Origin: a virus
Virus record (IMG/VR): IMGVR_UViG_3300044736_000016
Coordinates: 1-64,000 of that record
DNA length: 64,000 nt
Strand: one strand, 5' to 3'
Shown here: one piece after another, positions 2,235-52,725 of the stretch
How the letters are laid out: the number at the start of each line of letters is the position of its first letter
How positions within the stretch are numbered: the first letter of the stretch is position 1
The notes under the pieces: generated by a model
Database searches by the model: none
Told to the model about the DNA's origin: nothing
What the model saw: the letters and a program-made list of their open reading frames with translations, nothing else
Program-made: the position numbers and the translations under genes

Positions 2235-2315
2235 GTGACGACGATACCACATACCACTCCCCGTAGCGCAAGCACGACTCTTGCCCAGCCGCATGACGGG
2301 TCGGTAGCGTCATGA
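2235..2315 (+). CDS. 26-codon leader gene coupled to the replication initiator
   Basis: Reads GTG ACG ACG ... to TGA at 2313-2315, encoding a Thr/Ser-rich 26-residue peptide. AAGGAGG at 2222-2228 lies 6 bases before the GTG, and the stop overlaps the initiator ATG (ATGA). A second, overlapping 15-codon frame (2219-2266) also has AAGGAGG upstream (2202-2208), so two ribosome sites compete here. I infer translational coupling that sets initiator level; whether the peptide acts is unknown. Confidence 0.45.
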   Translation: MTTIPHTTPRSASTTLAQPHDGSVAS

Positions 2316-3121
2316 GTGGCGACACGGTTCGCTCTGGTCGCTGGCCTCTAGCGATAGTGCCGGAGTGGCTGTTCGATGAGCCGTCGCTACCCGGCGAGGC
2401 GTTACGTCTCTACTGCGTGCTCGAGCGGCTAGCCCAGCGGGACGGCTACGCCCACCCACTCCGGGCGACGCTCGCCAAGCGGCTCGGGTGGTCTGTCGCC
2501 AAGGTCTCGAGGATGCTCACGGAGTTGGTGGCCGTCCATGCCTTGAAAGTCGAGCACCAACACGGCGACGACAACGCTCAGGTTGGCAGCCGGTACTACC
2601 TGGCAGGGCCAGAGCCATTCCCCGCCGAGGCGACCCCCCCCCTCTCAGATCTGCGACCCCCCCCCTCTCAGATCTGCGACCCCCCCCCTCTCAGATCTGC
2701 GACCCCCATAGGAGAAGGAACTACAAGTAAGAAGATAGACAAGGACTCTCCTAACGGAGAGTCCGGCGCGGTGCCGAAATCGGCTCCTCTGGTTGGCGAG
2801 ATCGTTCCAGCCCTGAACCCCGGAGCGGTCTACGTTGAGGCTTGTCGGCTGGCTGGGTACGATCCTCTCCCCTCGGACGTAGGCCGTATTGGAAAGGCCG
2901 CGAAGGAGGCGCGGGCGCAGGGCAAGTCCGACGACCTCGTCCGAGGGACATGCGAACGACTGGCGCAGCGCAACCTCGGTGCGCCGATGTTCGGCCGCGT
3001 CCTTGCCGAGTTGGAGCGCGGGAGCAACGGGCATGGCCCGCTATCCGGTCAGCGCCGGCCGACGCACCAGGACACCTTCGACATCCTCGACGCCTTCGTC
3101 GCAGAGGGGCGGGCCTCGTGA
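2312..3121 (+). CDS. Winged-helix replication initiator (lambda O-like organisation)
   Basis: 269 residues. Residues about 10-95 form a winged-helix domain of phage replication proteins (LRATLAKRLGWSVAKVSRML is the recognition-helix region). A Pro-rich linker encoded by DNA repeats (2634-2706) follows, then a helical C-terminal domain that probably contacts helicase or loader. Gene order initiator-loader-helicase-primase supports the call. The linker is unusual: three copies of one DNA unit are read in three different frames, so selection probably acts on the DNA, as in an origin inside the gene. Confidence 0.8.
   Translation: MSGDTVRSGRWPLAIVPEWLFDEPSLPGEALRLYCVLERLAQRDGYAHPLRATLAKRLGWSVAKVSRMLTELVAVHALKVEHQHGDDNAQVGSRYYLAGPEPFPAEATPPLSDLRPPPSQICDPPPLRSATPIGEGTTSKKIDKDSPNGESGAVPKSAPLVGEIVPALNPGAVYVEACRLAGYDPLPSDVGRIGKAAKEARAQGKSDDLVRGTCERLAQRNLGAPMFGRVLAELERGSNGHGPLSGQRRPTHQDTFDILDAFVAEGRAS
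2630..2763. other. Putative replication origin inside the initiator gene
   Basis: Three iterons (2643-2656, 2665-2678, 2688-2701) lie about two helical turns apart, followed by an A-rich stretch (2707-2741) that stands out from the GC-rich surroundings, and a perfect inverted repeat GGACTCTC/GAGAGTCC (2742-2749/2756-2763). Iterons, easily melted DNA and inverted repeat inside the initiator gene is the layout of lambdoid origins. Origin function is inferred. Confidence 0.6.
2634..2706. repeat. Iteron array with variable C-tracts
   Basis: The 14-mer TCTCAGATCTGCGA occurs exactly three times, separated by C-runs of 9, 8, 9 and 5 bases. Unit spacing is 22 then 23 bases. The 8-base palindrome CAGATCTG is at the centre of each copy. 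Confidence 0.95.
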
Positions 3122-3666
3122 CACGCGACGAGTTCCGAGGCGTCACGAGGCTGCTCATGGCCTCATGGCCAGCCGCATCTCCGCTCGCGCAGGACGCCTT
3201 GGCGGCGGCGTGGGACGTGCTGGGTGGACTGGAGGCGGACGTCGTCCTGACGGCGGTCCGCACCTTCGTCCGCGACGGCGAGCGCTTCCAGCCCACCGCT
3301 GGTCAGGTGTACCGGCGGGTAGTTGACATCGCCGACGACAGCCCACCGTGGGAGTGGGCGTGGATGGAACTCAGCCGGCTGGCTCGGACTCATGGTCAGT
3401 GCGCGCGCCCCTCGGAGATCCCGTGGTCGCATCCGCTGATCGCCGAGACAGCCACGACGATCGACTGGGCGCAGATGTTCGAGTCGGGTCGCGAGATGGC
3501 AGGACAGGGCTTCGTGCGTCGGATCTACGAGGCGTTGCGTGAGGATCGGCAGCGGCGTGTGAGGTACGCAGGGCTTGCGGTGCCGTCCCGGACTCTGCGG
3601 CTTACCGCCGCCGCGCAGCCTGCCAACGGTCCTGTCTTCACAGACCCTGCGGATTACGGGCTGTGA
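3118..3666 (+). CDS. Helicase loader, G39P-like
   Basis: 182 residues starting GTG in a GTGA overlap with the initiator. The N-terminal region (TRDEFRGVTRLLMASWP, then WDVLGGLEADVVLTAVRTFV and QPTAGQVYRRVVD) has the pattern of the SPP1 G39P-type loader domain, which brings the replicative helicase to the initiator at the origin. It lies directly before the helicase gene. Call rests on pattern and context rather than an alignment. Confidence 0.65.
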   Translation: MTRDEFRGVTRLLMASWPAASPLAQDALAAAWDVLGGLEADVVLTAVRTFVRDGERFQPTAGQVYRRVVDIADDSPPWEWAWMELSRLARTHGQCARPSEIPWSHPLIAETATTIDWAQMFESGREMAGQGFVRRIYEALREDRQRRVRYAGLAVPSRTLRLTAAAQPANGPVFTDPADYGL

Positions 3667-3678
3667 TGGAGGCCAAGG

Positions 3679-4704
3679 GTGCCTGATCCCGAGCAGCAGG
3701 AGCGCATGTTGTCCATCCTCCGCTTGGCGACGGGGATGGTGGAGGGCGCCAACGGCAATCTCGCCGAGGTGCGCCAGTCGATCATCGCCGGCCTCTCTGC
3801 GATGGAGAAACCTCAGTCGGCCGAAGGTGACGACCCGCGTCCGCTGTGGGAGATCATCAACGACCACCTCGCAACGATCGAGAGGCGGCAGAACGGGGAG
3901 CGGTGGGCGATCTCCTCCGGGTTGCCGTGGATCGACCGGATGACTGGTGGCTGGCACCGTGGAGAGTTCATCGTCGTCGGCGGTGCGAGCTCGGCCGGCA
4001 AGTCGGTGCTCGGCCTGCAGTTCGCCCGCACCGCCGCGATGCGGGGCTACCGTGTGCTGTACGTGCTGCTCGAGATGACCACCGAGCAGATGATCGACCG
4101 CGTGCTGTCCAGCGTCGCAGGGGTGAACTTCCGCCGGCTGGCGGATGGCAAGCTGGACAGCCGGGAGTGGAAATCCATCTTCGACGCAGCCATGCAGATC
4201 CACGAGCAGAAGGTGCACATCGTCATCGACGATCGCTGCCCCGCCACGCTGGCGGCTATTGAGGAGCGCGCCCGACGTGCTGCCACCAACGGGCTAGACA
4301 TGGTCGTCGTTGACTACGTCGGCGAGATTGCGGAGGAACCCGGTCGGCAGACTCGCGTCGAGCACGTGGGCAGAATCGCGACGGGGCTGCGAACTCTTGC
4401 GAAGCAACTGAAGATCCCGGTGATTGCGCTGGCGCAGTTGAATCGCGAGGCCGGTACCGGCAAGCCGTCGTTCCAGAGCCACCTCGGGGAGAGCAAGAGG
4501 CTGGGGGACACCGCCGACGTGGCGTTGCTGATCTGGCGGCCCAACCGGTTGGTCGATGGCACGCAGCCAGCGGAGGAGGTGATCGAGATCGGCGTGGACA
4601 AGCAGCGCAACGGTCCGGTGGGGTGGGCCGAGTTCACGCTGGTCGGCGCGCAGATGACCGTCAGAGAGCGGGCCAGTACCGCTCAGTGGACAGGGGTGGC
4701 ATAG
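3679..4704 (+). CDS. dnaB: DnaB-type replicative helicase
   Basis: 341 residues, a RecA-fold DnaB C-terminal domain. Walker A is GASSAGKS at about residues 103-110; Walker B is MVVVDYV at about 210-216; PVIALAQLNREAG at about 252-264 is the DnaB H3 motif. The N-terminal part is a short helical region rather than a full DnaB N-domain, as in many phage helicases. GTG 3679 has GGAGG (3668-3672) upstream. Expected to form the hexameric fork helicase with the loader and the Prim-Pol primase beside it. Confidence 0.9.
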   Translation: MPDPEQQERMLSILRLATGMVEGANGNLAEVRQSIIAGLSAMEKPQSAEGDDPRPLWEIINDHLATIERRQNGERWAISSGLPWIDRMTGGWHRGEFIVVGGASSAGKSVLGLQFARTAAMRGYRVLYVLLEMTTEQMIDRVLSSVAGVNFRRLADGKLDSREWKSIFDAAMQIHEQKVHIVIDDRCPATLAAIEERARRAATNGLDMVVVDYVGEIAEEPGRQTRVEHVGRIATGLRTLAKQLKIPVIALAQLNREAGTGKPSFQSHLGESKRLGDTADVALLIWRPNRLVDGTQPAEEVIEIGVDKQRNGPVGWAEFTLVGAQMTVRERASTAQWTGVA

Positions 4705-4707
4705 GCG

Positions 4708-5577
4708 ATGGACGAGTTCATGCAGGCCGCGATGGACTACGCGGCAGGCGGCTGGGCAGTCTTTCCACTACAGCCAATGGACAAGCGCCCGTATCCCGGC
4801 ACGCACGGATTCTGGGACGCCGTAGGGACGCCCGAGGGGGCGAGGCAGGCGTGGCTGCAGCGCCCCGGTAGCAACGTGGGTGTGGCGACGGGCGCATCGA
4901 AACTGCTCGTGCTTGACGTGGACGGCGACAAGGGCGCGGCCAGCTTGGACGTGCTGGTCTTCGCGAACGGAGCGTTGCCGACGACGCGGCGTCAGGTGAC
5001 CGGCAAGGGTTGGCAGTGGTTTTTCCTGCGGCCGGATGGGTCGCGGATCGGCAACTCGGCGGGCGGCCACGGGCTCATCGGCAAGCGGATGGGTGAAGGC
5101 TTGGACGTACGCGGTCAGGGAGGTTACGTCGTCGTCCCGCCGTCGATTCACCCGTCAGGGAGGCGGTATCGGTGGGAGGACACCTCGGACGTCGCCTCGG
5201 CCCCTGCGTGGCTGCTGGCGCTGCTCGAGCCGCCTCCTGCGCCACCCCGGCAGCACGTCGTGGCCAAGCTCTACGCGGGCGAGATGGGCGCCTATGCGCG
5301 GAGAGCGGTCGAGTCTGAACTGGCGGCTTTGAGCGCGGCGCCGGAGGGGCAGCGTAACGTAACGCTGAACTCTGCCGCCTTCGCGCTCGGACAACTCGTC
5401 GGTGGTGGTGAGGTGAGCGTCACGTACGTGGCCGGATCGCTCCGCATCGTCGGGCTTGGCATCGGTCTCTCGGAGGCAGAGACGGACGCCACCATTAGGA
5501 GCGGACTGTCGGCTGGCATGAGGCAGCCGAGGGTTACTCCTAACGGACGCAACGGTCACCCGATGGAGGCAGCGTGA
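4708..5577 (+). CDS. Prim-Pol primase (bifunctional primase/polymerase domain)
   Basis: 289 residues. The AEP-type Prim-Pol N-domain spans about 5-175: MDYAAGGWAVFPLQP opens the domain, LVLDVDGDKG (about 69-78) holds the catalytic DxD, and GLDVRGQGGYVVVPPSIHPS matches the conserved RGxGGYVVxPPS core. The C-terminal 100 residues are helical and may be the primase C-domain. It makes primers, possibly short extensions, for the adjacent helicase. The same domain is found in replication proteins of actinobacterial integrative and conjugative elements. Confidence 0.9.
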   Translation: MDEFMQAAMDYAAGGWAVFPLQPMDKRPYPGTHGFWDAVGTPEGARQAWLQRPGSNVGVATGASKLLVLDVDGDKGAASLDVLVFANGALPTTRRQVTGKGWQWFFLRPDGSRIGNSAGGHGLIGKRMGEGLDVRGQGGYVVVPPSIHPSGRRYRWEDTSDVASAPAWLLALLEPPPAPPRQHVVAKLYAGEMGAYARRAVESELAALSAAPEGQRNVTLNSAAFALGQLVGGGEVSVTYVAGSLRIVGLGIGLSEAETDATIRSGLSAGMRQPRVTPNGRNGHPMEAA

Positions 5578-8261: not shown

Positions 8262-8383
8262 GCTCCCTCCGTACCGGCGACGGCCGTACCGTCGTCTCTA
8301 TGATCGCGTTTGTCTCTCAGCGTGGAGATAGGCACGATCGTCCCGCCCACGGCCGCAGCGGGCAAGTGCGAGACGTCGGCCAT
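8258..8383 (-). CDS. 41-residue hypothetical protein
   Basis: Starts in a TGATG junction with the VirD4/TraG-like ATPase and ends in an ATGA junction with the next gene. The N-terminal half is hydrophobic (VSHLPAAAVGGTIVPIST), the rest charged. Coupling on both sides supports it. Confidence 0.5.
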   Translation of the reverse strand: MADVSHLPAAAVGGTIVPISTLRDKRDHRDDGTAVAGTEGA

Positions 8384-10152
8384 CAGGCGCCCTCCTGCTT
8401 GGCAACGTCTGCGGTTTCCGCGAACATGTCCGAGAACACCCCTGGTACGCCCGCATCTGTTTCGGTCGAACCCTGCTCGTGGATCTGGTCGAGCCCGTAC
8501 GGCACCGTGAGCTTTCCCCACATCTCGAACGGACGAGTGTCGCCATGGTAGACCGTCTTGGCAAGCGTGATCCGCTCGCTCATGCTGATAAGTACCTTGC
8601 CATCCGCGATGTTGGTGATCTCATGCTGCGGCCAACGCCATTCATCATGCGGCGTCACAGTGCGGGTGACCGTACGGGTGCGCCGCTGCTCCTTGTGCTG
8701 CGCATGGCGCTCGTGGCTGGCGTGGTCGTCGTCGACCGTCGGCTGCTGGCGCCACCACGGGGCACGGGTGCGGGCCACCGCCTTGGTCGTCCGGTGGATG
8801 GTGTGCTTGCCGCCGGTCCGCTCAAGGCTGGCGAGCAGCTTGGGATCCTTGCACCCGCGCAGCACAGCGGTGACCGCCATGCCCTCGCGGACCACCCTCT
8901 CGGTCTCCGCGTTCCACCGCAGGCTGAACTGTCCCATTGCCTGCACGGAGGCCATGAGCACGACCCCGCGTCCTCCCCCGTCGCCGATGATCCGCGTGAG
9001 AGACGGCAGGGGACTGAGCGTCGCCATCTCGTCCAGCGCAAGCAGGAACGGCCGCTCCAATGGCTGCCCACCCCGGCTGTCGGAGATGGTGTATGCCGCC
9101 TCCGTGATCTCCTCGATTAGCCCGGTGGTCAGCGGCGCCAGGTCGCAGTTCGGGTCCGAGGGGGCGACGACGAACAGCGCATGATCGCGGCCCAACTGCG
9201 GTCGGACGCTCGGGTCATGCTCGTCGTATCCGAGGAACTCGTACGGGTCGAAGCCGCACTCGCCAGCAAGGTTCGCATCCGCCAGGACCCGCGGGTTGTC
9301 GAACGCCGAGATGGCCGCGTCGAGGCAGGACCATACAGACCCCACCTCATCGCTCTCGCGCACCTTGGGGTCGCGCAGGGTCAGGCTGGCTAGGTTCTCG
9401 AGCGCCTGCCGGTCCGGGCAGAGATGTGGGTTCCCTTCCCACCGCGCGATCCTGGTCTTGAGGATGTCCGCTGGCTCGTCCACGTTGTGCTGCTTCACCC
9501 ATGAGCGGACGTGCCCCATGCCCTTGCCGTCCAGCGCAGCGGCGTACAGGAGCGGCGCAAGGTACTGCGTGGCCCGCGTCTGCCAGTGGCTCGGATCCTT
9601 GGCCCCTTTGCCGGCGTTGATGCCCATGGCTCGGGCGCGCTTGGTGGCAACGTAGAAGTCCTCGCAGCCTCGCAGCGGAGACCAGTGCAGGCGACGCACC
9701 CACGGCGGCACGTCGTCGGCTCCGAGGATCTGCATGGGGTCGAACACCCACACCTTGCCGCGGTAGGTGCGGACCGCCTTGCAGTGCTCAAGGATGTCCG
9801 GCTTGGTACTCGTGGCGACGACCGGTCCCAGCCACGCCTGCACGTTGGGGATGATCAGCGTGGCGGTCTTGCCTCGCTGCGAGATGGCGACGATCAGGAC
9901 GTGCTCACGCGGAGGAGCCTGCACGAACCGGCCCTTGTCCCAGCCTAGAATGGGGCGTCCGGGGATGATCCCGTGCCAGATCGGGTCAACGGGATCAAGG
10001 CAGTGTAGCCGGGGCGGACGGAGGCGCTGGCCATCGCGGAACACTGGGGAGGCGTGGTACTGAGCGAGGAGGCGCGGACCGTAGCGCATCTTGCCGTGCC
10101 AGCCAAGGCCACTCATCCCGGCGAGAGCGGCGACGATCTCGGGGAGGATCAC
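8383..10152 (-). CDS. VirD4/TraG-like coupling ATPase
   Basis: 589 residues related to type IV secretion coupling proteins, which pump DNA to a conjugation channel. HVLIVAISQRGKTATLIIPN (about 84-103) is the Walker A region, with the first Gly of the P-loop replaced by Ala; ATSTKPDILEHC follows as in TraG/VirD4; RPFLLALDEMATLSPLPSL is Walker B; ASVQAMGQF is the sensor region. Unlike VirD4 and TraG, no clear N-terminal membrane anchor is visible. No relaxase or VirB4 homologue is present in the window. It may move the phage genome during conjugal-type transfer, or work with the nearby membrane proteins as another translocase. It overlaps the gene upstream by ATGA. Confidence 0.8.
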   Translation of the reverse strand: MILPEIVAALAGMSGLGWHGKMRYGPRLLAQYHASPVFRDGQRLRPPRLHCLDPVDPIWHGIIPGRPILGWDKGRFVQAPPREHVLIVAISQRGKTATLIIPNVQAWLGPVVATSTKPDILEHCKAVRTYRGKVWVFDPMQILGADDVPPWVRRLHWSPLRGCEDFYVATKRARAMGINAGKGAKDPSHWQTRATQYLAPLLYAAALDGKGMGHVRSWVKQHNVDEPADILKTRIARWEGNPHLCPDRQALENLASLTLRDPKVRESDEVGSVWSCLDAAISAFDNPRVLADANLAGECGFDPYEFLGYDEHDPSVRPQLGRDHALFVVAPSDPNCDLAPLTTGLIEEITEAAYTISDSRGGQPLERPFLLALDEMATLSPLPSLTRIIGDGGGRGVVLMASVQAMGQFSLRWNAETERVVREGMAVTAVLRGCKDPKLLASLERTGGKHTIHRTTKAVARTRAPWWRQQPTVDDDHASHERHAQHKEQRRTRTVTRTVTPHDEWRWPQHEITNIADGKVLISMSERITLAKTVYHGDTRPFEMWGKLTVPYGLDQIHEQGSTETDAGVPGVFSDMFAETADVAKQEGA

Positions 10153-12132: not shown

Positions 12133-15100
12133 CTATCCCATCCCGTGCGAGTTGCCGCCGATTTCGTGCGGCGGCGTGGTGTCTGTCTCTGCCGCGGAGT
12201 GATCCGGGGCGAGGTCTCTCGTCTCGGCCGTATCGCGCTCCGGCGTGCGGTCGGCCCTCGGCTCATCGTCACGCTTCGGCTCTGCGGGCTCCGGCGTGTG
12301 ATCTGCCTCCTGCTCATCGCGTCCCGGCTCGTTCTTGGCGGTGCGATCGGCCATCTCGGGCGCAGGCTCCGATTCTGGCGTGTCATCGGGCTCCGGGCGG
12401 GCTTCATTTGGCTGCTCGCGGTCCTGCTCCTCGGCAGCGTCAGGGCGCGACGGTCCATCAGTAGGCCGATCAGTAGCGCGCTCCTCCACGGCGTCATCCG
12501 CGGGATTGACGATCAGTTTGCGGTCTTGCGCCAAGTCTGCGAGTAGAGGCTGATCCGGGATTGCGTCTTCGGCAGTTGTCCGTGGATCCCCGACAGCGTG
12601 GAGAGCGTCATTGATGGGGACGGCGTTGGTGTCTGGAGCGTCCGGCGGATCGGTACCTGCGTCCACGACGCCTATAACTTGCCCGCGGTTATTCAGAAGC
12701 TGCCCGCCTGAATCCCCTGGATCAGATCGTGCGTCCACTTCGATGGTGTCAGCGACGTGGACAGGCTTCCCGGTGACATCATCTGGACTTGTGATTTCGT
12801 CCGCATGCGGGCTGGTCACGCGGCCGGTGTGGCTGTCGGTGCTGTGGCCGTAGTCGCCGACGATGCTCACAGGATCGCCAACCGCCACGTTTTTGGAGTC
12901 GCCGAGCACGGCCGGGTTCATTGGTGGTGCTCCCTCCACTTCCAACAGGTCAACATCGTGAGCCGTGTCGTCTCTAAGTACGAGTGTCTGATATTGATGG
13001 CTATCGACTTCCACGATCGTCGGCTGGTGCAGAGCAGCGGCATCCTCAACAACGTGGTGAGCGGTGAGTAACCGGTTGCCTGGCAGTACAATGCCTGTGC
13101 CCACGCCGTGGCCGGATGGATCGACGATGCGCGCGATGCCAGCATGGGTGGCGGTTGGCGCTGGTGAGATTGGTACTGGGGTATCGTGCAGAGTAGGTCC
13201 ACCGCTAGCCATCAGCGCTGCCGCGACAATGCCGACGCTGGGATGCGTCACCTGCCTATGCGCTGGCATTTCTTCTGCGCTGACGTGAGGTGTGTCGATC
13301 ATCTGCGGCACGGACCTTTCTGGTACTTCTACACTGATCGGCTTTGGCGACAAGCCAACCAGATCCGCGAGCCCATGTCGCTCCAGCACGTCGGGGTCAT
13401 GGGGTGGGCGCTCTGCTGGCTGCGCGTCGTCGACCGTGGGAGGTGGCGGTAGCTCGGCGTCTTCCGGTCGCCCAAGCCCACGTCTGCGCTCGGGTGGCAC
13501 GGCGTCCTCGGTCTCGTTCCCTGCGTCGATCGGAGCCCGTTCGGGCAGCCCACGCTCCCCCGCTCGAGTAAGCCCACGTCGGAGTTCGGGCGCTACGCCA
13601 TCCTGCTCTGCCGTGCGGCTCTGTCCGTACACAGGCTCAGGCAGATCGCCAGTGCCAGCCTGCCGCAGACCACGCTCGCGCTCTGGCGGTGTGGTGCGTG
13701 GACCCTGCCCGCCCAACCTCGTCCACGCCTCGTCCAAGTTGCGCTCGAAGGTCTCGCGGTCGACGGGCAGGCCACGCTCGCGTGCCTTGGCAGCCACTTG
13801 TGCCTGTGTGGCGTAGGCGTCGCTCCAACCCGGCGGTGTGGTCGTGCTGGCGGGCTCGGCATCACTTACCGCGCCGTCTCGCAGCCACGACGTGTCCGTC
13901 AGCGGGCTGGGGACGTTCTGCCGTGGGGCACTCGGGCTAGCCTGCTGCTCCCACATTGGCGCTGCGTCGCGGAGGCGTCCAGACTGCTCACGCTCGACCG
14001 GAGCGGCCTGCATCTCACGCAGTGCGGATGCGTCGGTGATCTGCTGGAGTAGGTCGGGCTCCTGCGACCCAGCGTGAAGCCGATGACGTTCTGCGGTCGG
14101 CAGGCCAGCGTGGCCGTTCCCTACCGCACCCGCCATGTCCACGATCTCTGCGGTGACGGGCCGGCCGTCCACACGCGTCACCACGGGCTGCGCTGCGTGC
14201 TCTGGTGTGGCTGTGATCCCACGGCGCTCGGCAGCGAATACGTCGTATCCATCCCGTCCCACAGCGTCGCGCACCGTTGATGTGGGCGGCGCATCGGTGA
14301 TGGCGGGACGTTCGGCGGACACGGTGCGGTCACGGTCCTGCGCATGTTCCTGCTCGGCTGCGGCCATCCGTGCCTCACGTTCCTGCCGCTCTGCCGGGGT
14401 ACGGAGTTCGTCGCGCGGATCCGGCACGACCTCACGGTGCGCTCGGTGCATGTCTGCCGCGGTGGTGCCGGGTGGAAGGCCGTTCAGGTCGTCAACCATC
14501 CACGCGTCGTTGATCGGGTCCGATCTACGCTGCTCGTCCATCCTCTGCGCGAACCGCTCTAGCCGATCGTTGCGTCCAACGTCCGGATCCACTACCGCTA
14601 TTTGCTCGGCGCTGTGGAGTTCTTTGCGCAGATCCATGTTGACACCGTTCCCCAGCGCAAGGTCGACATCGGAGTGGGACAGATGCGTGCCGAAGTCACT
14701 CTCGCGGTCGATGTCTGAGTAGTCACGTCGCCGTGCCGCTCCACTGTGCTGGATCACGGTCAGCCCTTCCGCCTCAGCCGCTTCACGGATGCGCTGTGCG
14801 GTCTCTGGAGTGGCGAACCCTTCCACCGCCGCGTTCTGGTGAAAGATGTCCCCGCCGTATCCGACGCTGTTGGCCATGCCCGGTTGAGAGCCGATGGTCG
14901 CGAACCCGGCGTGGTTCATGCGGACGAGCGGGTCTTTGATGAGCGCCGTCTCGGAGTCGGGATCGGGATGGCCGTTCGGATGTGCAAGATGACCGGGCAG
15001 GAATTGCTCTGCGGTGATCTTGCCGAGGTGGTTGATCGTCGTAGCGTCGCTCCAGTCGCGGATGACGCGCTGCTCGCGAGCGGGCCTTTCCGCAGCCAAC

Positions 15101-16629
15101 ACGTCCGGTACCGACTCCTTCACCAGCCCATGCTGCTTGGCGAGGACGGACGCGGCCGTGCCCTCTTCGTGGCCGTTGATCCTGTCGACTTGCCGTAGTT
15201 CCTCAAGCGAAGGCACTCCAATGACCTTGCCGTCCTTGTCGAGTGCGAGCGTGGAGGTGTTCGTCTCAACCCCACCGCGGAGGAATAGCGCGTTTTCTGC
15301 CACCCTGGCCGCGCGCTGAGCACGCGGAGAGGCGACGGACTGCGGCACGGCGGCTGCGTTGGCCACGGCCTCCTCGCGCTGTATGCCGTCGAGGGACCGT
15401 ATTCCTCGCTGGACCCGTTGCTCCTGGGCAGGCGTCAGGGGAACCACGCCAGCCGTGTCACGCTGCGGGGTCCGTGGCTTCCGTCCGCCGAGCACCGGCA
15501 CGCTGGAGCCGAGGGCGTCCGCGATGCTCGCCACGGACGGCATACGGCGTGGCTTGCTGGCGTGGCGCTGGCGGCCGTTGCTACCGCCGCCTCCACCGCC
15601 GTTTCGCGCTGCGCTGGCCGGTGGCTTGGCTGCGGCCCTGCTGCGTGCGTCCGGCGTGGCCGGTGGCTTCTCGCCGCATGCGCTGACCACCTTGCCGCCG
15701 ATTCCGGCGACGAACGACCCATGAGCGCCGACTTCGAGATCCCACAACTGCCGCTGCCGTACCGCCTTGCGCGCCTGCTGGTTGCCGAGCCACGAGTGGT
15801 GACCGCTGTGGCCGTGGCCTGCGTCCATGCGACGTGCCTGATACGTTGGACGGAACGGTGCGAACACGTGCTCGATATCGGTGCGCTCGCCGAGGGTCTC
15901 CGCAACGATGCCCATCATGGTCACCAGAAACGCAGAGGTGGTCGGAAGGGGTTTCCAGTCTGGGCCGTAGTAGCCCTTCAGCAGTGCACGGCGGTAACGT
16001 TCGTCCATCCCGAGACCCCATGGCGGGACCGTCTTGGTGTGAGGCTTGTCGCCGAAGTGCTCTGCCAGAAACCGTGCCTGCTCGCGGTCGCGCCCCTCGA
16101 AAGTGACGCCGCCGCCGCTCTTATCCTCGCGTCCCGTCCAACCTGAGAGATACTGGCGGATGTGCTGCGCCTCACGCTTATCCGAAGCCTTGATCGTGAT
16201 GCGATCGCCGTTGACTTCACCACTGCGTAGGTAGGAGCCGACGAGATGCCATTCCTCTGGCGTCTCCGGTGCACCAGCCGGGATCGGCAGCGGATCGATG
16301 TGAGTTGGTGTGGCCCACGCGTGGCGCCGCTTGTCGAACAGGCCCGCGCTCATCCATCCGGGTGTCCCGCCGTTCGATGTGGCCCGCACCAGCACGGGGT
16401 GGCCGTCCGACGCCTCAATCCCAGCATGCCCATGCCCAGACACCCGCACCGTCGAACCCTTGCGCCGATGGACGTTCGTGACAGGCTGCCAACTGCCGTT
16501 GCGATCGAGCACGCGGTGGCTCTGGCTGACGTCCTGCATGTGCATGATCCGCTCGTCTGTGATGACGGGCGTCTTGCCGGGAAACCCCTCGGGCGGACGG
16601 CGCGGCGGCTTGGAAATCTGCGTGGGCAT
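12133..16629 (-). CDS. Giant polyprotein: degenerate intein, DUF6919-like region, trypsin-like protease
   Basis: 1,498 residues. 1: residues about 15-320 resemble an intein: an N3-like HRVLDRNGSWQPVTNV, block B EASDGHPVLV, LAGLIDADG-like LVGSYLRSG and ALLKGYYGP, and block F LWDLEVGAHGSFVAG. The nucleophile Cys1 and the C-terminal His-Asn are lost (VVSAC at the end), and the endonuclease acidic residues are gone, so it should neither splice nor cut. 2: about 560-640 holds MNHAGFATIGSQPGMAN, resembling actinobacterial DUF6919. 3: long charged, repeat-rich linkers. 4: about 1165-1330 is an HtrA/trypsin-like protease: LLTAHHVV (His about 1189), DVDLLEVEG (Asp about 1226), DPGDSGGQLL (Ser about 1305). 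5: a Glu/Asp/Arg-rich tail. ATG 16629 is chosen because upstream codons are non-coding in character and a small membrane gene ends at 16635. Possible roles: virion protein injected with DNA, or conjugation surface protein. Confidence 0.75.
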   Translation of the reverse strand: MPTQISKPPRRPPEGFPGKTPVITDERIMHMQDVSQSHRVLDRNGSWQPVTNVHRRKGSTVRVSGHGHAGIEASDGHPVLVRATSNGGTPGWMSAGLFDKRRHAWATPTHIDPLPIPAGAPETPEEWHLVGSYLRSGEVNGDRITIKASDKREAQHIRQYLSGWTGREDKSGGGVTFEGRDREQARFLAEHFGDKPHTKTVPPWGLGMDERYRRALLKGYYGPDWKPLPTTSAFLVTMMGIVAETLGERTDIEHVFAPFRPTYQARRMDAGHGHSGHHSWLGNQQARKAVRQRQLWDLEVGAHGSFVAGIGGKVVSACGEKPPATPDARSRAAAKPPASAARNGGGGGGSNGRQRHASKPRRMPSVASIADALGSSVPVLGGRKPRTPQRDTAGVVPLTPAQEQRVQRGIRSLDGIQREEAVANAAAVPQSVASPRAQRAARVAENALFLRGGVETNTSTLALDKDGKVIGVPSLEELRQVDRINGHEEGTAASVLAKQHGLVKESVPDVLAAERPAREQRVIRDWSDATTINHLGKITAEQFLPGHLAHPNGHPDPDSETALIKDPLVRMNHAGFATIGSQPGMANSVGYGGDIFHQNAAVEGFATPETAQRIREAAEAEGLTVIQHSGAARRRDYSDIDRESDFGTHLSHSDVDLALGNGVNMDLRKELHSAEQIAVVDPDVGRNDRLERFAQRMDEQRRSDPINDAWMVDDLNGLPPGTTAADMHRAHREVVPDPRDELRTPAERQEREARMAAAEQEHAQDRDRTVSAERPAITDAPPTSTVRDAVGRDGYDVFAAERRGITATPEHAAQPVVTRVDGRPVTAEIVDMAGAVGNGHAGLPTAERHRLHAGSQEPDLLQQITDASALREMQAAPVEREQSGRLRDAAPMWEQQASPSAPRQNVPSPLTDTSWLRDGAVSDAEPASTTTPPGWSDAYATQAQVAAKARERGLPVDRETFERNLDEAWTRLGGQGPRTTPPERERGLRQAGTGDLPEPVYGQSRTAEQDGVAPELRRGLTRAGERGLPERAPIDAGNETEDAVPPERRRGLGRPEDAELPPPPTVDDAQPAERPPHDPDVLERHGLADLVGLSPKPISVEVPERSVPQMIDTPHVSAEEMPAHRQVTHPSVGIVAAALMASGGPTLHDTPVPISPAPTATHAGIARIVDPSGHGVGTGIVLPGNRLLTAHHVVEDAAALHQPTIVEVDSHQYQTLVLRDDTAHDVDLLEVEGAPPMNPAVLGDSKNVAVGDPVSIVGDYGHSTDSHTGRVTSPHADEITSPDDVTGKPVHVADTIEVDARSDPGDSGGQLLNNRGQVIGVVDAGTDPPDAPDTNAVPINDALHAVGDPRTTAEDAIPDQPLLADLAQDRKLIVNPADDAVEERATDRPTDGPSRPDAAEEQDREQPNEARPEPDDTPESEPAPEMADRTAKNEPGRDEQEADHTPEPAEPKRDDEPRADRTPERDTAETRDLAPDHSAAETDTTPPHEIGGNSHGMG

Positions 16630-16634
16630 TTTGG

Positions 16635-16814
16635 TTATCCCAGACGTGCGTGGCTGCCGGGCATGTAGGCGTAGATGCACATGACGCCGATGAGTGCGCC
16701 GATGATGCCGCCTACCACCCTGACCACGACTTTCTGTCTGAACCCCGTGATGGCGAGCCTGATGCCCATGAACACCGCGACTCCACCGACGAGACAGATG
16801 GCTATGCCCAGCAT
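16635..16814 (-). CDS. Small membrane protein, two TM segments
   Basis: 59 residues: MLGIAICLVGGVAVFMGIRL forms TM1 and VVGGIIGALIGVMCIYAYM forms TM2, with a short basic loop between. It sits 2 bases after a similar small membrane gene. Size and topology resemble VirB2/TrbC pilin-like or VirB3-like subunits, but sequence alone does not prove this. Confidence 0.65.
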   Translation of the reverse strand: MLGIAICLVGGVAVFMGIRLAITGFRQKVVVRVVGGIIGALIGVMCIYAYMPGSHARLG

Positions 16815-16816
16815 CC

Positions 16817-31398: not shown

Positions 31399-33519
31399 CT
31401 ATCCAGCCCTCCGCTGACCCTTCCAGTGCCTGATCAGGCGGCCCATCTCGGACTCGCTCACGTAGGCACCCTGCATCCGGCGCGTCTCGCCGTCGTCGTT
31501 CAGCCTGCAGAGCATGTCCCCACGGCCCGCCAGTTTCTCCGCTCCCATCTCATCGAGAATGACCCGCGAGTTCACCCCGCTCGAGACCCGGAAGGCGATG
31601 CGGCTGGGGAAGTTCGCCGTGATGTCTGCTGGGATGAGTTCCGCCGAGGGTCGCTGGGTTGCCGCGACAAGGTGGATCCCGGCCGCCCTGGCAAGCTGAG
31701 CCAGCCGCTGCAGGGCCTCCTCCACGTCATCCTTCGCCCGGAGCACAAGGTCGGCAAGCTCGTCGATCACCACCACGATGCGGGGCAGGGGCTCGGCCCT
31801 AGTGTTGTGCTGGGCGATGTTCTTTGACCCACTGCCGGCGAGGATTCGGTACCGCTTGTCCATCTCGTCGACCACCTCGCGGAGCGCCTCAACCGCCTCG
31901 TCAGCGTCGTTGACGATGGGCCGTAGCAGATGGGGGATGCCAGCGTACCCCTCCAACTCGACCACCTTGGGGTCGATGAGCACGATCCGTAGTTGATCCG
32001 GGGTGGACTGCAACAGGAGCGAGGCGAGCAGGACGTTGATGTACACGGACTTGCCGGAGTTCGTCGCCCCGCCGATCAGCAGATGCGGGGTGGTCGTCAG
32101 GTCGCCGACCGCGGACTGCCCGGAGAGGTCTGCGCCGAGGGCGATGGCCAGCCCGGTGCGGGCCACGATGCGGAAGGCCGGGGCCTGCACGAGGGACCGC
32201 AGGGTGACCAGCTGGGCGGACTTGTTCGGCACCTCGATGCCCACGGCGGCCTTGCCGGGGATCGGCGCCTGGATCCGGATGGTGGCCGCAAGGGCGAGGG
32301 ACAGGTCGGTCTGCCGCGTGGTGATGCGCCTGACCGACACGCCGGGGGCAGGCTGTAGGACGTACTGCGTGACCCGCGGGCTGGGGTTGACCTCGATCAC
32401 CCGACCCATGACGCCGAAGGATTCCAGCGTGGATTCGATCAGCGAGCGGGTGTTGGCGATCTCCGCTTCCTGCCGAACGCGGTCAGTCTTGCCCTCGTCT
32501 AGAAGGTCGATGGGCGGCAGGAGCCACTCTGAGTGCCCCGTCTCCAAATCTGGCAAGACCATGAGCGCGGTCTGTCCGGAGTCGCCAGCTGGATACTGCC
32601 CGTCATCCGTGGCGGGTTTTGGAGACTCCGATGGGCGCGGAGGGTTCGCCATGGCCTCTCGCATCGGGCCGGCCAGCCACGGCACGCCCTGCCAGTTGCG
32701 TCCAGCCTGAGCGGGAGCGTGCGTCTCGTCCTCCGCAGGCTCCTCCGTGTCGCCGCTCTCCTCGCCACGGATCCATCCCCACAGTCGCTCAGACCGTAGC
32801 CCACGCCGCATCCCGTCGCGCATCGCACCGGCCACCACCGGCACATCAAGGTCCACGGCTAGCACCAGGCCGAGGCACGTCAGGCCGACGAACAGCACCA
32901 CCGACCACCACGGCCCGACCCAGCCAGCTGCCGAATCCGCCAGCGAACCTCCGACCGACCCTGCCCCGCCCCGCGTCCACGGCACCAACGCGGTCAGCCC
33001 GAGCAGCCCCGGGATAGCGATGCCCACCCCCGCAGCCGAGGCGTGACCGTGCCCCAGCAGCAACCGAACTCCGACCAGCAGCAGACCGGCCACGAGCAGA
33101 GCATCCCCGACCACCCCCAGCCAGTCCGTGAGCATCGAGCCCTGCGGGATGAGCAGGAGCGGGATGGAGAGCAGCGCCGCGATGAGCGCCCCGACGCCGT
33201 GCAGGTTGCGCCGCTGGTCGTGGGTGACCTTGGGCGCCTTGGCGGTACGCCTTGCCGGTCGTCTGGTCCGGGTCGCCATCACGCCTCCTGCGGGAAGGTC
33301 GGGGAACTTGCGGCCGTGCTCTTTCTCATGGCACGGACGGCAGAGCACCATGAGGTTCGCACGCCTGCAGTCGTTCGGTCTGCGGTTCTTGTGGTGAGCC
33401 TGTAGCGCCCGATCCGTCTTGCACCGCTTGCATCTCTGGCCTCGGCGGAACTCGCGGCTGAGGTCGGGCCAGCACTCCGGGTAGTCGGTGCCGGGGTAGA
33501 CGCGGAACGTGGTAGCCAC
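31399..33519 (-). CDS. ftsK: HNH domain fused to FtsK/SpoIIIE DNA translocase
   Basis: 706 residues. Residues about 30-68 are an HNH/zinc domain (CKRCKTDRALQAHHKNRR, MVLCRPCHEKEH). Residues about 100-215 hold four TM helices. Residues about 350-700 are an FtsK motor: Walker A GGATNSGKSVY (about 480-490), Walker B VVVIDELADL (about 585), then LAATQRPS and FPSRIAFRV. No gamma DNA-binding domain is visible. ATG 33279, behind AGGAGG, starts an FtsK product without the HNH. Related one-protein pumps (TraB) drive conjugation of Streptomyces elements, so this is a strong candidate for DNA transfer or segregation. Confidence 0.88.
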   Translation of the reverse strand: MATTFRVYPGTDYPECWPDLSREFRRGQRCKRCKTDRALQAHHKNRRPNDCRRANLMVLCRPCHEKEHGRKFPDLPAGGVMATRTRRPARRTAKAPKVTHDQRRNLHGVGALIAALLSIPLLLIPQGSMLTDWLGVVGDALLVAGLLLVGVRLLLGHGHASAAGVGIAIPGLLGLTALVPWTRGGAGSVGGSLADSAAGWVGPWWSVVLFVGLTCLGLVLAVDLDVPVVAGAMRDGMRRGLRSERLWGWIRGEESGDTEEPAEDETHAPAQAGRNWQGVPWLAGPMREAMANPPRPSESPKPATDDGQYPAGDSGQTALMVLPDLETGHSEWLLPPIDLLDEGKTDRVRQEAEIANTRSLIESTLESFGVMGRVIEVNPSPRVTQYVLQPAPGVSVRRITTRQTDLSLALAATIRIQAPIPGKAAVGIEVPNKSAQLVTLRSLVQAPAFRIVARTGLAIALGADLSGQSAVGDLTTTPHLLIGGATNSGKSVYINVLLASLLLQSTPDQLRIVLIDPKVVELEGYAGIPHLLRPIVNDADEAVEALREVVDEMDKRYRILAGSGSKNIAQHNTRAEPLPRIVVVIDELADLVLRAKDDVEEALQRLAQLARAAGIHLVAATQRPSAELIPADITANFPSRIAFRVSSGVNSRVILDEMGAEKLAGRGDMLCRLNDDGETRRMQGAYVSESEMGRLIRHWKGQRRAG

Positions 33520-42831: not shown

Positions 42832-43659
42832 GTGGCTGCACTGTTCTCACACGCCCGCAGACTGGCTGCCGCGCTCGACCCTGTCATCCGGATGCGACAG
42901 GCTGGTATCACCGCTGACCAGTGGCAGGAGATTCTTCTACGTAGCACTGCGCAGCGGATCATCATCCTCGCATCCCGCCAAGGGGGGAAGTCGACCGTCG
43001 TTGCTACGGACGCCTTGCATGTCGCTGAGCAGGACCCGCCCGGCGACGTCATCATTGGCGCGGTCAAGCAAGATCAGTCAGCGGAAATGCTTCGGAAGTC
43101 CAAGACGATCTACGGCATCACGGGCAGCATCTTCGAGGACGAACTGGACGGCGATCTCAAGGGGAACTCGATTCTCCGGGTGGAGATGCCGAACGGGTCG
43201 CGAATCCTAGCGGTGCCAGGGAAGGCTGGCACTGTGCGATCGTTCACGGCCAAACTGCTGATCATCGACGAGGCGGCCTACGTCCCTGACGACTTCTACA
43301 AGGCCGTCTTCCCCATGCTCGCCGTATCCCACGGCCGCATCATTCTGCTCTCCACCGCGCATGCCAAGTTCGGAGCGTTCTATGACATCTGGACCGAGGC
43401 GCCTGAGTGGGACTTTCGGCTGCCAGCTGAGGCGCAGGAGGAGGCGTGGCTCAAGATCAAGGTGCCGTGGTGGGAGTGTCCGCGTATACGGCCGGCTTTC
43501 ATCGAGGCTGAGCGAGCGAGGTTCGGCAACGCTTACGTGCAGAGGGAGTACGAGTTGGAGTTCGCCGACGCCATCACCGCTGCCTTCCGCACCGAGGACA
43601 TCGACGCCATGGCGCGCGACGACGTGGAGCCGTGGGCGTGCGCAGGGTGGGCGCGGTGA
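42832..43659 (+). CDS. terL: Terminase large subunit, ATPase half
   Basis: 275 residues, covering only the packaging ATPase. ASRQGGKST (about 47-55) is the Walker A variant of large terminases; KLLIIDEAAYV Walker B; LLSTAHAKFGAFYDIW the coupling motif; DFRLPAEAQEEAW and FEDELD lie around it. The reading frame ends after VEPWACAGWAR, just where the linker to the nuclease normally begins. The nuclease half is a separate gene at 44246. Start GTG 42832. Confidence 0.85.
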   Translation: MAALFSHARRLAAALDPVIRMRQAGITADQWQEILLRSTAQRIIILASRQGGKSTVVATDALHVAEQDPPGDVIIGAVKQDQSAEMLRKSKTIYGITGSIFEDELDGDLKGNSILRVEMPNGSRILAVPGKAGTVRSFTAKLLIIDEAAYVPDDFYKAVFPMLAVSHGRIILLSTAHAKFGAFYDIWTEAPEWDFRLPAEAQEEAWLKIKVPWWECPRIRPAFIEAERARFGNAYVQREYELEFADAITAAFRTEDIDAMARDDVEPWACAGWAR

Positions 43660-45564: not shown

Positions 45565-47460
45565 GTGGCGATCCTCGGTCCTGACGGTCGGGCGTTCCCA
45601 CAGACCACACGCGCAGAGTTCGCGGCTGCTCAGTCCGTACTATCGCGGCTACCTGCCGAACTGCGTCGTGCCGTGAACCTTGACGAGATCGGTGTCAGCG
45701 CTACCCAGATCATCGGGGGACTGATCTACGAGGAACGGGCGCCCGAACTCGCCGGGTCCAAGGGCATGGAGGTGTGGCGGGAGATGGGGCATGACGCCAC
45801 CTTGGCGATGTGCCTCCACGCCACCATCAACCCGCTGCGCAGCGCCGACTGGTTCATGGAGCCCGCGAGCGAAGACCCTGTCCACGTCGAGCAAGCTGAC
45901 CTCGCACACTGGTGCCTGTGGGAGTTCGGCACCATGTCATACGACGACCTGTTGCGCCAGCAGATGCGTGCCATGAAGCAGTACGGGATTGGATGCTCAG
46001 AGCTCTGCTATCGACCGATTCCCTCCGGTGAGTTCGCAGGCAAGTGGGGATGGGAGAAGTTGGCGTGGCGTTCACCGCTGTCCCTCTACCGCTTCAACGT
46101 CGAGTCGGTGCAGACGGAATACGGTGGCACGCGTCGCGAACTCGTCGAGGTGGTGCAGCGTGATCCTGCCAGCGGTGGGCTGTTCTACCTTCCCAAGGAC
46201 AAGGTACTGCTGTTCATCAACGACCTCGAAGGTGAAAACTTCCTCGGCAATTCAAGCTTTCGCCAGTGCTACGAGGCATGGCGGTACAAGCGTGCCATCG
46301 CGCGCCTGGAGGCCATCGCCCTAGAACGCTGCGGGATGGGACGCATGAAGGCCACGCTTCCGCAGGACTACTCCGACGAGGAGCGCAAGATGGCGCGGCA
46401 GATCGTTGAGAACGACCGCATCCACGAGAACGCCGGCATCGTCACCACCGAGGCGGTGCCGGTCGAGGTCATCCACAACTCAATCGAGGGGGCGGCATTC
46501 CGGGCGGCGTGGGAGGCGTACGACGCGGCGCTGTGCTTCCCGTTCCTCACGCAGTACCTGCTGCTCGGGCAGCGGGGCAACAGCGGGGCGTACTCGCTCA
46601 GCCAAGATCACTCGCAGATTCAGCTCACGCAGCTCAACGGTGATGCGAACCAGTTCGAGCAGGTGCTGAATCTCAGTCCGGGCATCCCGCTGCTCATCGC
46701 CATCAACTACGCGAACGCCGACCCGAGCAAGATGCCGAAGTTGCAGCACGGAGACATCGGCCGCAAGGACATGGAGCTGATGGGCAAGACCCTTCTCGCG
46801 CTGTCGCAGGGTGGGTGGGTCATGCCGACAGCGCAGGACGAGGACACGCTGCGCAAGTTCGTCGACCTCCCGGAGCGCGATCCGCTGCTCGGCCCCGAGG
46901 CGTTGGTGCCGCTCATCCAGCAGGTGCTGCCGCCGACGTGGTGGGGCACGCCGCACCAGGCTGGACAGGCGGTCAACCCTGCGGCCAAGGCTCTGGTCGG
47001 CTCTGGGACGCCCGTGTCGAGTGTTCAGCAGGCGACCGATGCGAAGGGGCAGTTTTCCGAGCGTGAGTGGGCCGTCATGGCTGAGCGATCGGTGAGGGCA
47101 CGGATGCCGTGGCGCCGCCCTGCGGTCAAGGGTGGACGCGTCACCGCCGAGGACGCTGTGAGGGTGCGGATGGGGGAGTATCTGTTGGACTACTTCGAGC
47201 AGGCCGACCGACCACGTATGCAGAAGCCCGACTCGCCATCGGTGCGCATTGCCAAGCGGCGCAGGCCGTACCAAGTAGCGCGTATGGCACAGGATGCGGC
47301 CAAAGTGGTGGAGATCAACGCACGAGCCAAGGCGGGCGGCGGGAGTGCGAACGGCAAGCGCAAGGTGGTCGTGAGCCCAGCGGACATCGTAGCGAGGCAG
47401 GGGCGTAGGTCGGTGCAGGACGTGCTTGCGGGCCTCGGCGCGAACGGGAGCGGGAAGTGA
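45565..47460 (+). CDS. Portal protein (DUF935, Mu gp29-like)
   Basis: 631 residues. Family features of DUF935 portals are clear: ATQIIGGLIYEERAPELAGS near the start, the LHATINPLRSADWFMEPAS block, WRSPLSLYRF, GLFYLPKDKVLLF, and the helical stem with GQRGNSGAYSLSQDHSQIQL. Ends in a Lys/Arg-rich tail. It forms the dodecameric gate through which DNA enters and leaves the head. GTG start follows the previous stop directly. Confidence 0.9.
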   Translation: MAILGPDGRAFPQTTRAEFAAAQSVLSRLPAELRRAVNLDEIGVSATQIIGGLIYEERAPELAGSKGMEVWREMGHDATLAMCLHATINPLRSADWFMEPASEDPVHVEQADLAHWCLWEFGTMSYDDLLRQQMRAMKQYGIGCSELCYRPIPSGEFAGKWGWEKLAWRSPLSLYRFNVESVQTEYGGTRRELVEVVQRDPASGGLFYLPKDKVLLFINDLEGENFLGNSSFRQCYEAWRYKRAIARLEAIALERCGMGRMKATLPQDYSDEERKMARQIVENDRIHENAGIVTTEAVPVEVIHNSIEGAAFRAAWEAYDAALCFPFLTQYLLLGQRGNSGAYSLSQDHSQIQLTQLNGDANQFEQVLNLSPGIPLLIAINYANADPSKMPKLQHGDIGRKDMELMGKTLLALSQGGWVMPTAQDEDTLRKFVDLPERDPLLGPEALVPLIQQVLPPTWWGTPHQAGQAVNPAAKALVGSGTPVSSVQQATDAKGQFSEREWAVMAERSVRARMPWRRPAVKGGRVTAEDAVRVRMGEYLLDYFEQADRPRMQKPDSPSVRIAKRRRPYQVARMAQDAAKVVEINARAKAGGGSANGKRKVVVSPADIVARQGRRSVQDVLAGLGANGSGK

Positions 47461-48875: not shown

Positions 48876-50113
48876 TGGACCGTCTCGAACTCGCACACCC
48901 CAGCGACACCCGGCAGGCCGCGCTCGACGCTCTGCCCGTCCATGGCTCGCTGCGCAAGACGGCGGCGGCGCTGGCTGGGCCTGACGGCAAGGGTCCGAGT
49001 AAAAGCAGCGTGCACCGATGGAAGCAACGTGCATCGGCAACCACAGACACTCCTGCACCGCCTGACACGTCCGACCTACCCGAACCTGACACCACGCAGA
49101 GTGCCGCGGACGATCCCGTCGTGCAGGCTGAGGCCGAGTACATCGACCCGGCTGGCGCCGCACCGGAGCCCGGCCCAACCTTCGCTGACCGTCTGACCGA
49201 CCCGACCTTCCTCCGCGCCTTACACCGTTACCTCGATCTCTGCGCCACAGGTACACGCCCGGACATCGCATGGGAAGGCGCGAAGGTGATCGACCCGTTC
49301 TTCTCGCTCTCCGACAGCGAGGATGCGGACCTACGGGCAGCAGTAGAGCGGTTCACAGGAGCGGAGACAGAGCGTGCCATCTTCGCGCTGTCCGAGCCGC
49401 TGTTCGTCAGCCAGACCGCCAGCGCGTTTCACTTCGACCCTGCGTCCACCAACGACCTCCTTGACGCACTGACCGCGGTGCGCACGGACGGGTATATGGC
49501 AGGCATCAACGCTGGCCTCACCGCGCATGGTCGTGATCCGCTCACGGATGTCACGGATGCTCGAACGCTGAGGTCGATCCAACTTGACGCGGCGGACGTC
49601 GTAAACAGCGTCACGAAGCAGTGGAACTCCGATGCCAGCGCCGCTGCGTGGAAGCAGTGGTCGGCGATCAAGGATGACCCGTCGCTCACCACCGAAGCAG
49701 ACCGGAAGGCAGCGCTAGAGGCTGGCATGTCGGACTGGCGAGACGGGCGGTCGCAGTGGAAGGCTGACCAGTGGACGGGAGACAACGCGGCGGCAGGGTT
49801 GTTCGACGGGGCGAAGGACTTTCAAGACCAGAACCAGACAGGTACGGTCGGGTGGATCGAGCCACGCGAAGGTGTCTGCTCTGCATGCCAAGACGCGATC
49901 GACCTTGGCGACGAACAGAGCCCTGTGGATGCCGACACACTCTACGCACTCGACTGGCCACTCCATCAGTCGTGCGAGCACGGACCCGTCACGGTGCAGA
50001 TCGATGTCCCACCTGATCAGGCGCTGTGGGGCGAAAACCTCGGCCCGACCGATGGCGGTGGAGACGCAGCACCAGCCGACGCATCGTCCAGTGGCGACGA
50101 GGCGGCGGCATGA
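48869..50113 (+). CDS. Probable minor head protein (SPP1 gp7/Mu F-like)
   Basis: 414 residues. N-terminal HTH-like segment (LDALPVHGSLRKTAAALAGP, KSSVHRWKQRA), a long helical body, then GWIEPREGVCSACQDAIDLG and HQSCEHGP: the Cys/His signature seen in the C-domain of SPP1 gp7-type head-morphogenesis proteins. Position after the portal supports the call. ATG 48875 (TGATG junction) is an alternative start. Confidence 0.6.
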   Translation: MLMDRLELAHPSDTRQAALDALPVHGSLRKTAAALAGPDGKGPSKSSVHRWKQRASATTDTPAPPDTSDLPEPDTTQSAADDPVVQAEAEYIDPAGAAPEPGPTFADRLTDPTFLRALHRYLDLCATGTRPDIAWEGAKVIDPFFSLSDSEDADLRAAVERFTGAETERAIFALSEPLFVSQTASAFHFDPASTNDLLDALTAVRTDGYMAGINAGLTAHGRDPLTDVTDARTLRSIQLDAADVVNSVTKQWNSDASAAAWKQWSAIKDDPSLTTEADRKAALEAGMSDWRDGRSQWKADQWTGDNAAAGLFDGAKDFQDQNQTGTVGWIEPREGVCSACQDAIDLGDEQSPVDADTLYALDWPLHQSCEHGPVTVQIDVPPDQALWGENLGPTDGGGDAAPADASSSGDEAAA

Positions 50114-50120
50114 GCGCGAC

Positions 50121-51209
50121 GTGAGGGTTCGCTACTACCCCGCCTCCCGCTATGACGGCTGCGCCATGTACCGTCTCGTCTTCCCTGCGACCGTCCTTGC
50201 AGCGCAGGGGCTGGACGTGGCCGAGGGGCGGCGCGAGGACATACAGGCCGTGTGGCGCCGCACTCAGGATGGGCCGCGGGTGGCGTGGGCCGAACCGCTC
50301 GACTGCGACGTGGCTGTCTTCCAGCGGGTGTGCAGGCGTGACATCGTGGACTGCATCCCGTCTTGGCAGCGGCAGGGCACGGCGGTGGTGATGGACGTGG
50401 ACGATCTGCTCTCGGCGGTCGACCCCGGCAACCCGGCGTTTGCGGCCTACCACCCGTCCAACCCAGCAGAGAACTGGCACCACCTTGAGCGGGCGTGCAG
50501 GATGGCGGACATGGTCACGGTGAGCACGCCAGCTTTGGCTGAGCGGTACGGGAGGCATGGGCGGGTCAGGGTGCTGCGAAACTGCGTGCCAGAGTGGTAT
50601 CTTCGTGTGGCGGGGGCATGTCCGATGGACGGAGGGTCGCAACCTCAAGTCGTCGCGACCGCTGCTCCCGTACTTGGCTGGGCTGGACGGGTCGATGTCC
50701 ACGCTGCCGACCTTGCCGTGGTTGGGACGGCCGTCGCTCAGGCACTACGGCAGACCAGCGCAACCTTCCGCGCTGTGGGGGATGAGGCCACCCTGACGGC
50801 GCTCGGGGTGCAGGGCGAGGTGGTGCCCTTCATGCCGTTCGAGGAGTACCCTGCGGAGGTGGCACGGTTGGACGTCGGGATCGCACCGCTGGCGTATACG
50901 GCGTTCAACCGCGGGAAGTCTGCCCTCAAGCCGCTCGAGATGGCCGCGCTGGGGGTGTCGTTCGTCGCCTCACCGCTGCCCGAGTACGCACGCCTGGCCG
51001 AGCTCGGTGCTGGCGACCTAGCATCCAGACCACGGCAGTGGCTCGCTGCTCTGCGCCGCCTGTTGACTGACGATGAGTACCGCGCTGAGCGTGTCGGTAG
51101 GGGGCGTGAGGTGGCCGCAGGGCTGACGTATGATGCGCACGCGGGTGGTTGGGCGGCAGTGTGGGGCGAGGCGCTGAGGGTGCGTCGGGGGGCGGCGTTG
51201 TGCCGGTGA
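50121..51209 (+). CDS. Glycosyltransferase, GT4-like
   Basis: 362 residues, two Rossmann-like halves. RVRYYPASRYDGCAMYRLVF, AVVMDVDDLLSAVDPGNPAF, MADMVTVSTPALAERYGRHG, RVRVLRNCVPEWYL, then a C-domain with VLGWAGRVDVHAADL, DVGIAPLAYTAFNRGKSALK and PLEMAALGVSFVASPLPEY, the conserved donor-binding helix of GT-B enzymes. Likely transfers sugar from a nucleotide donor. Start GTG 50121. Confidence 0.85.
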   Translation: MRVRYYPASRYDGCAMYRLVFPATVLAAQGLDVAEGRREDIQAVWRRTQDGPRVAWAEPLDCDVAVFQRVCRRDIVDCIPSWQRQGTAVVMDVDDLLSAVDPGNPAFAAYHPSNPAENWHHLERACRMADMVTVSTPALAERYGRHGRVRVLRNCVPEWYLRVAGACPMDGGSQPQVVATAAPVLGWAGRVDVHAADLAVVGTAVAQALRQTSATFRAVGDEATLTALGVQGEVVPFMPFEEYPAEVARLDVGIAPLAYTAFNRGKSALKPLEMAALGVSFVASPLPEYARLAELGAGDLASRPRQWLAALRRLLTDDEYRAERVGRGREVAAGLTYDAHAGGWAAVWGEALRVRRGAALCR

Positions 51210-52706: not shown

Positions 52707-52725
52707 TACTGTTCACTGCTGCGTT

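Follow-up and report, generated by a model that had tools for sequence, protein, structure and literature searches.

Does the gene for a phage's replication initiator also contain the site at which that initiator acts? The question was raised by a group of elements near the start of the window analysed here, a 64,000-bp stretch comprising bases 1-64,000 of the IMG/VR virus record IMGVR_UViG_3300044736_000016 (109,768 bp, classed as linear), in which a first-pass annotation had seen a lambda-like origin. Judged from the sequence, the origin of this temperate tailed phage appears to lie inside the gene of its own initiator. Phages lambda and SPP1 provide known examples of the arrangement, and it is common to the relatives of this phage.

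The phage record and its replication genes

The window contains genes for a terminase large subunit (42832-43659) and a Mu-type portal protein (45565-47460), and a major head protein, a tape measure protein and tail proteins are encoded past the window end in the same record. Because portal, terminase, head, tape measure and tail genes are present, the record is that of a tailed phage. A tyrosine integrase encoded on the minus strand at record positions 108714-109205 (match 1.3e-23) suggests that the phage is temperate; neither a ParA match nor a serine resolvase was found in the record. An actinobacterium is the likely host, since the GC content of the record is ~66% and the nearest phage initiators are those of Arthrobacter phages. 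With the integrase gene close to its far end and the replication genes at its start, the record may represent a prophage, or a circular genome that was opened at this point.

Further genes of the window encode, on the minus strand, a 589-aa VirD4/TraG-type conjugative coupling protein (8383-10152; T4SS-DNA_transf 1.7e-13, TraG-D_C 1.8e-11), near it a 1,598-aa protein with DUF6919 (1.7e-20) and trypsin-like peptidase (8.8e-17) domains (12133-16929), and a phage-encoded 706-aa DNA translocase of the FtsK/SpoIIIE family (31399-33519; 6.4e-51). The coupling protein had matches in 307 plasmid records, mostly actinobacterial, versus none in 50,697 phage records, and a chimeric assembly is possible. 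Glycosyltransferase and NAD-dependent epimerase genes are present 3′ of the portal gene (49872-54294).

The replication initiator gene (2312-3121, plus strand) encodes 269 amino acids comprising an N-terminal winged helix, a linker and a C-terminal helical part. The winged-helix DNA-binding segment, residues 26-73 (2387-2530, plus strand), matched Pfam HTH_36 at 1.1e-7, above the Pfam cut-off, and the protein matched phrog_270, "replication initiation protein," at 9.9e-10, with values of 1e-15 to 1e-34 for its relatives. No significant PDB hit was obtained in a profile search with the winged helix, the best (0.04) being to unrelated ubiquitin hydrolases. Single-sequence structure models reached mean pLDDT values of 40 and 49; at this low confidence, helices were predicted at residues 29-83 and 161-238 and none between them. 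The repeats, the A-rich segment and the inverted repeat described below correspond to about residues 107-151, between the two helical parts of the low-confidence model. The initial claim that these elements lie in a winged-helix initiator gene is supported.

The first-pass annotation had also placed loader and helicase genes downstream, and it was right with respect to the helicase. A DnaB-type replicative helicase consisting of the RecA-like C-terminal domain only is encoded at 3679-4704 (plus strand; DnaB_C 4.3e-53, phrog_19 8.4e-68), followed by a protein with a Prim-Pol primase/polymerase domain at 4708-5577 (plus strand; PF09250 3.1e-40, phrog_1156). The loader found no family support: the 182-aa protein encoded in the loader position between the initiator and helicase genes (3118-3666, plus strand) gave a weak match to phrog_9804, a profile without assigned function, and no Pfam, PDB, phage or G39P match above threshold. 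BLASTP comparisons with the downstream proteins of Kovu, Bolt007 and Daredevil were negative, as was a tblastn search. From the position of its gene, the 182-aa protein is a probable helicase loader.

Iterons, unstable segment and inverted repeat

Three direct repeats of the 23-bp unit GCGACCCCCCCCCTCTCAGATCT are located on the plus strand at 2630-2652, 2653-2675 and 2676-2698, followed by a 9-bp partial fourth copy, GCGACCCCC, at 2699-2707 (plus strand). The three complete copies are 100% identical in DNA, as had been noticed at first reading, and they start in codon frames 0, 2 and 1, which likewise agrees with the original description. Each copy is read in another frame and encodes a different peptide; since the frames differ, it is the DNA and not the protein that recurs. 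With a TRF score of 156, the array outscores every other tandem repeat in the 109,768-bp record (runner-up, 57), and the best score among 2,000 order-2 Markov copies of the initiator gene was 70. Each unit contains a C9 run, and three of the four runs of at least 8 C or G in the whole record are found in the iterons. A 14-bp imperfect palindrome, TCTCAGATCTGCGA, with the centre CAGATCTG, is present at 2643-2656 and recurs at 2666-2679 and 2689-2702; these palindromes are likely to be half-sites for an initiator dimer.

The array is followed by a putative DNA unwinding element (DUE) at 2708-2748 that is A- and purine-rich on the plus strand. In a scan of duplex stability with nearest-neighbour energies, which was not tuned to the array, no 40-bp segment of the 109,768-bp record was less stable than this one, which starts one base after the array end. 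The A-rich stretch pointed out earlier is real and is the stability minimum of the record. An inverted repeat, GGACTCTCC-TAAC-GGAGAGTCC, with perfect 9-bp arms and a 4-nt loop, was confirmed at 2743-2764, ending one base beyond the previously given end at 2763. Perfect 9-bp arms separated by 3-8 nt occur at just four places in the record, including this one, and in 38 of 20,000 random 60-mers; when the local sequence was shuffled 400 times, the score of the inverted repeat was equalled twice.

Recurrence in related phages

A tblastn search with the initiator led to the Arthrobacter phages Altadena and Kovu and, through them, to further initiators. Between the window and the initiators of these closest relatives, the winged helix shows 27-34% identity. 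When IMG/VR was scanned with the initiator alone, no relative was found; a scan with a winged-helix alignment gave six further loci, which extended the array pattern, and a scan with the helicase gave distant loci only, which were left out of the comparison. A search of genome contigs yielded one weak match, to a gene without an array. The 17 loci that were compared, including the window, were picked by protein similarity and not by repeats. Brynnie, Krakatau, ReT1v-2, Gsput1 and Daredevil, some of which have arrays, were left out of the counts as having different initiators that match in the C-terminal domain only.

Arrays with units of 18-25 bp were present just 3′ of the winged helix in nearly all of the relatives' initiator genes. 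By a fixed rule (TRF, period 16-26, score of at least 60), 13 of the 17 loci had a scored array inside the initiator gene, and two arrays were counted outside it in 149,292 bp of flanks. The 13 arrays do not represent 13 independent events, because some of the loci are closely related (Klevey, Lilmac and Bolt007; Waltz and Shrooms). No scored array was obtained for Altadena, L074, L076 and Lesiram: Altadena has two 24-bp copies by repeat search, though below the scoring rule, any repeats of L074 and L076 are under the threshold, and Lesiram has no array. The first-pass annotation had named relatives that keep the protein and lose the repeats as an argument against an origin; this was not the pattern observed, because the relatives retain both the initiator and the repeats.

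The layout next to the array recurs as well. The 40-bp stability minimum of the gene begins at most ~15 bp from the array end in Altadena, Kovu, LiSara, Edmundo, Lilmac, Klevey, Bolt007, Bumble and lambda, but lies away from the array in Waltz and Shrooms. An inverted repeat is found 31-44 bp past the array in lambda (28 bp with one mismatch), in Altadena, Lilmac, Klevey and Bolt007 and, in a weaker form, in Bumble, and is absent at this place from the Kovu-LiSara-Edmundo group. Between Klevey/Lilmac and Bolt007 both arms of the inverted repeat have changed, from G-C to C-G, in one event. The Bumble iteron is CCCCCCCCCTCAAAACCGCG, and a long C run, the C8-9 iteron core, is common to the window, Bumble, Altadena, Klevey, Lilmac and Bolt007, with C9 tracts in Bumble and Altadena. 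Alignment of the whole origin of the window with that of Bumble and with that of Altadena was better than all 300 shuffles, a test that is generous because of the long C runs. The DUE and inverted repeat alone gave no significant alignment to most relatives, the best being Lilmac (10 of 1,000 shuffles, uncorrected, 10 comparisons).

In three relatives, L008 (6375-6418), L059 (~2937-2979) and L075 (3371-3408), the unstable segment 3′ of the iterons contains a second short AT-rich repeat of ~15 bp resembling GAACTTAGAACCA, which is possibly a strand-opening motif. The unstable segment of the window has only GAACTACAA in its place.

Origin model and comparison with known systems

On the basis of the sequence features described above, we consider it highly probable that 2630-2764 is a theta-type replication origin within the inter-domain linker of the initiator, where the iterons would be bound, the A-rich DUE opened, and helicase and primase recruited. 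The winged helix would be the part of the initiator dimers that binds the 23-bp iterons. As suggested by its position, its minimal stability and the analogy to lambda, the A-rich segment 2708-2748 would be strained and opened by the resulting nucleoprotein complex, and the inverted repeat at 2743-2764 would delimit the unwinding element on its far side. The C-terminal domain and the 3118-3666 product would then recruit the DnaB-type helicase and the Prim-Pol primase, a step suggested by the gene order, as in SPP1 38-39-40. Improbable in our judgment is an additional role of the G tracts complementary to the C9 runs (three G9 and the G5 of the partial fourth copy), which might form a quadruplex or other G-rich structure by the DUE that helps to keep the origin open and would define, together with Bumble, Altadena and Klevey-type phages, a distinct class of G-tract iterons.

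The GC skew of phages often tracks gene direction and is therefore weak evidence either way. A turn near 2.7 kb, which the first-pass annotation had proposed to look for, was not seen in the full record, where the cumulative skew had its minimum at 37 kb and its maximum at 85 kb.

Iteron arrays of plasmids often also titrate or autoregulate their initiators. The repeats might accordingly be an operator or incompatibility array through which the initiator represses its own operon or limits copy number, replication starting elsewhere, and a protein bound to the array, which does lie 3′ of the start of its gene, could block transcription; for lambda, interference between O binding and transcription is discussed in PMC3985674. 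However, an operator would need neither the record's least stable segment nor the inverted repeat that follow the array, and no further iteron copies were found elsewhere in the record, including upstream of the initiator gene, so that we regard this explanation as very unlikely.

Even less probable is a slippage or phase-variation tract, in which the frame would shift and the initiator be turned off whenever a 23-bp unit or a C of a C9 run is gained or lost. The unit length is not divisible by 3, and most of the long C or G runs of the record are the C9 runs of the iterons, which would suit such a tract, but the initiator frame is open in the record, and the arrays that relatives have at the same place differ in period (22-25) and lack C9 runs. 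Slippage would also leave the adjacent unstable segment and the inverted repeat unexplained. Equally little probability is assigned to a low-complexity, proline-rich protein linker whose coding repeats expanded neutrally, the DNA itself having no role. Linkers tolerate repeats, and the low-confidence model predicts no structure for the encoded segment; yet the DNA of the three copies is 100% identical while they are read in three frames as different peptides, and arrays are kept at the same place in relatives with different peptides.

If the elements form an origin, the combination of an array and a stability minimum in the initiator linker provides a sequence rule that would predict origins to within ~100 bp in this group of actinobacterial phages, covering phages whose initiator is labelled "RepA-like initiator" or "hypothetical," and plasmid replicons for actinobacteria could be derived from such origins. 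The initiators Altadena gp41, Kovu gp88, Bumble gp39 and Klevey gp44, annotated as "RepA-like replication initiator," share PHROG 270 and the winged helix with the window protein. The Arthrobacter phage genes with PHROG 270 initiators have the array, the unstable segment and sometimes the inverted repeat at positions as in the window, with array periods of 22-25 bp compared to 23 bp. The small proteins encoded downstream of these initiators (phrog_15900) do not match the 182-aa protein of the window. A search of the open-access literature on Arthrobacter phages yielded no description of origins of this family and no proven origin for these closest relatives. In the mycobacteriophages Miko, Rachaly and Jeeves, which form RepA-dependent extrachromosomal prophages, repA together with the DNA upstream of it is sufficient for replication, and their RepA-like initiator has an N-terminal HTH, as in the window phage (PMC7157519). 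With reference to lambda, the authors of that study placed the origin within repA or upstream of it, and identified no repeats there; the origin of these comparable phages could not be located. All three carry parABS (PMC7157519), whereas the window record has a tyrosine integrase and no ParA match.

In lambda, iterons with an adjacent AT-rich tract inside gene O constitute the proven origin (PMC7466680). Dimers of O bind the iterons, wrap the DNA into the O-some and open the neighbouring AT-rich tract (PMC3985674, PMC7466680). As in the window, the lambda iterons are ~20-24 bp apart and located inside the initiator gene, 3′ of the DNA-binding domain (PMC7466680, PMC6022878). In lambda, the least stable segment starts 3 bp after the array and is followed by a palindrome, the same order and orientation as in the window; the palindrome comprises 28 bp at 44-71 bp after the array in lambda and 22 bp at 36-57 bp after the array in the window. 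According to work cited in PMC7466680, three iterons suffice for lambda growth, and the minimal unwinding unit consists of two iterons and the AT-rich region; three iterons could thus also be enough in the window. The iteron sequences of the two phages are unlike each other, and so are the initiator families, HTH_36/PHROG 270 in the window and Phage_rep_O (PF04492) in lambda. Lambda O matched PF04492 at 5.7e-36, whereas the window initiator gave no match at E 0.1; phrog_391 and phrog_678 matched lambda O strongly and the window initiator weakly (1e-3). The designation "lambda-like" holds for how the origin would work, as seen in the order and spacing of the layout, and, judged by Pfam, fails for the protein family.

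With respect to gene content, the closer counterpart is SPP1. Its oriL in gene 38 combines direct repeats and an AT-rich unwinding element inside the initiator gene, and genes 38-39-40 encode, by published description, an initiator, a small protein and a DnaB-family helicase in the same order as in the window (PMC6316719). The small proteins differ, as the G39P family (PF11417) had no match anywhere in the record at E 10. SPP1 has a second origin, oriR, whereas one strong array only, and no such second origin, was seen in the window record. Lambda uses its P protein as a loader of host DnaB, whereas the window phage encodes its own DnaB-type helicase and primase, which makes its gene set more similar to SPP1 38-39-40 than to lambda O-P (PMC6316719).
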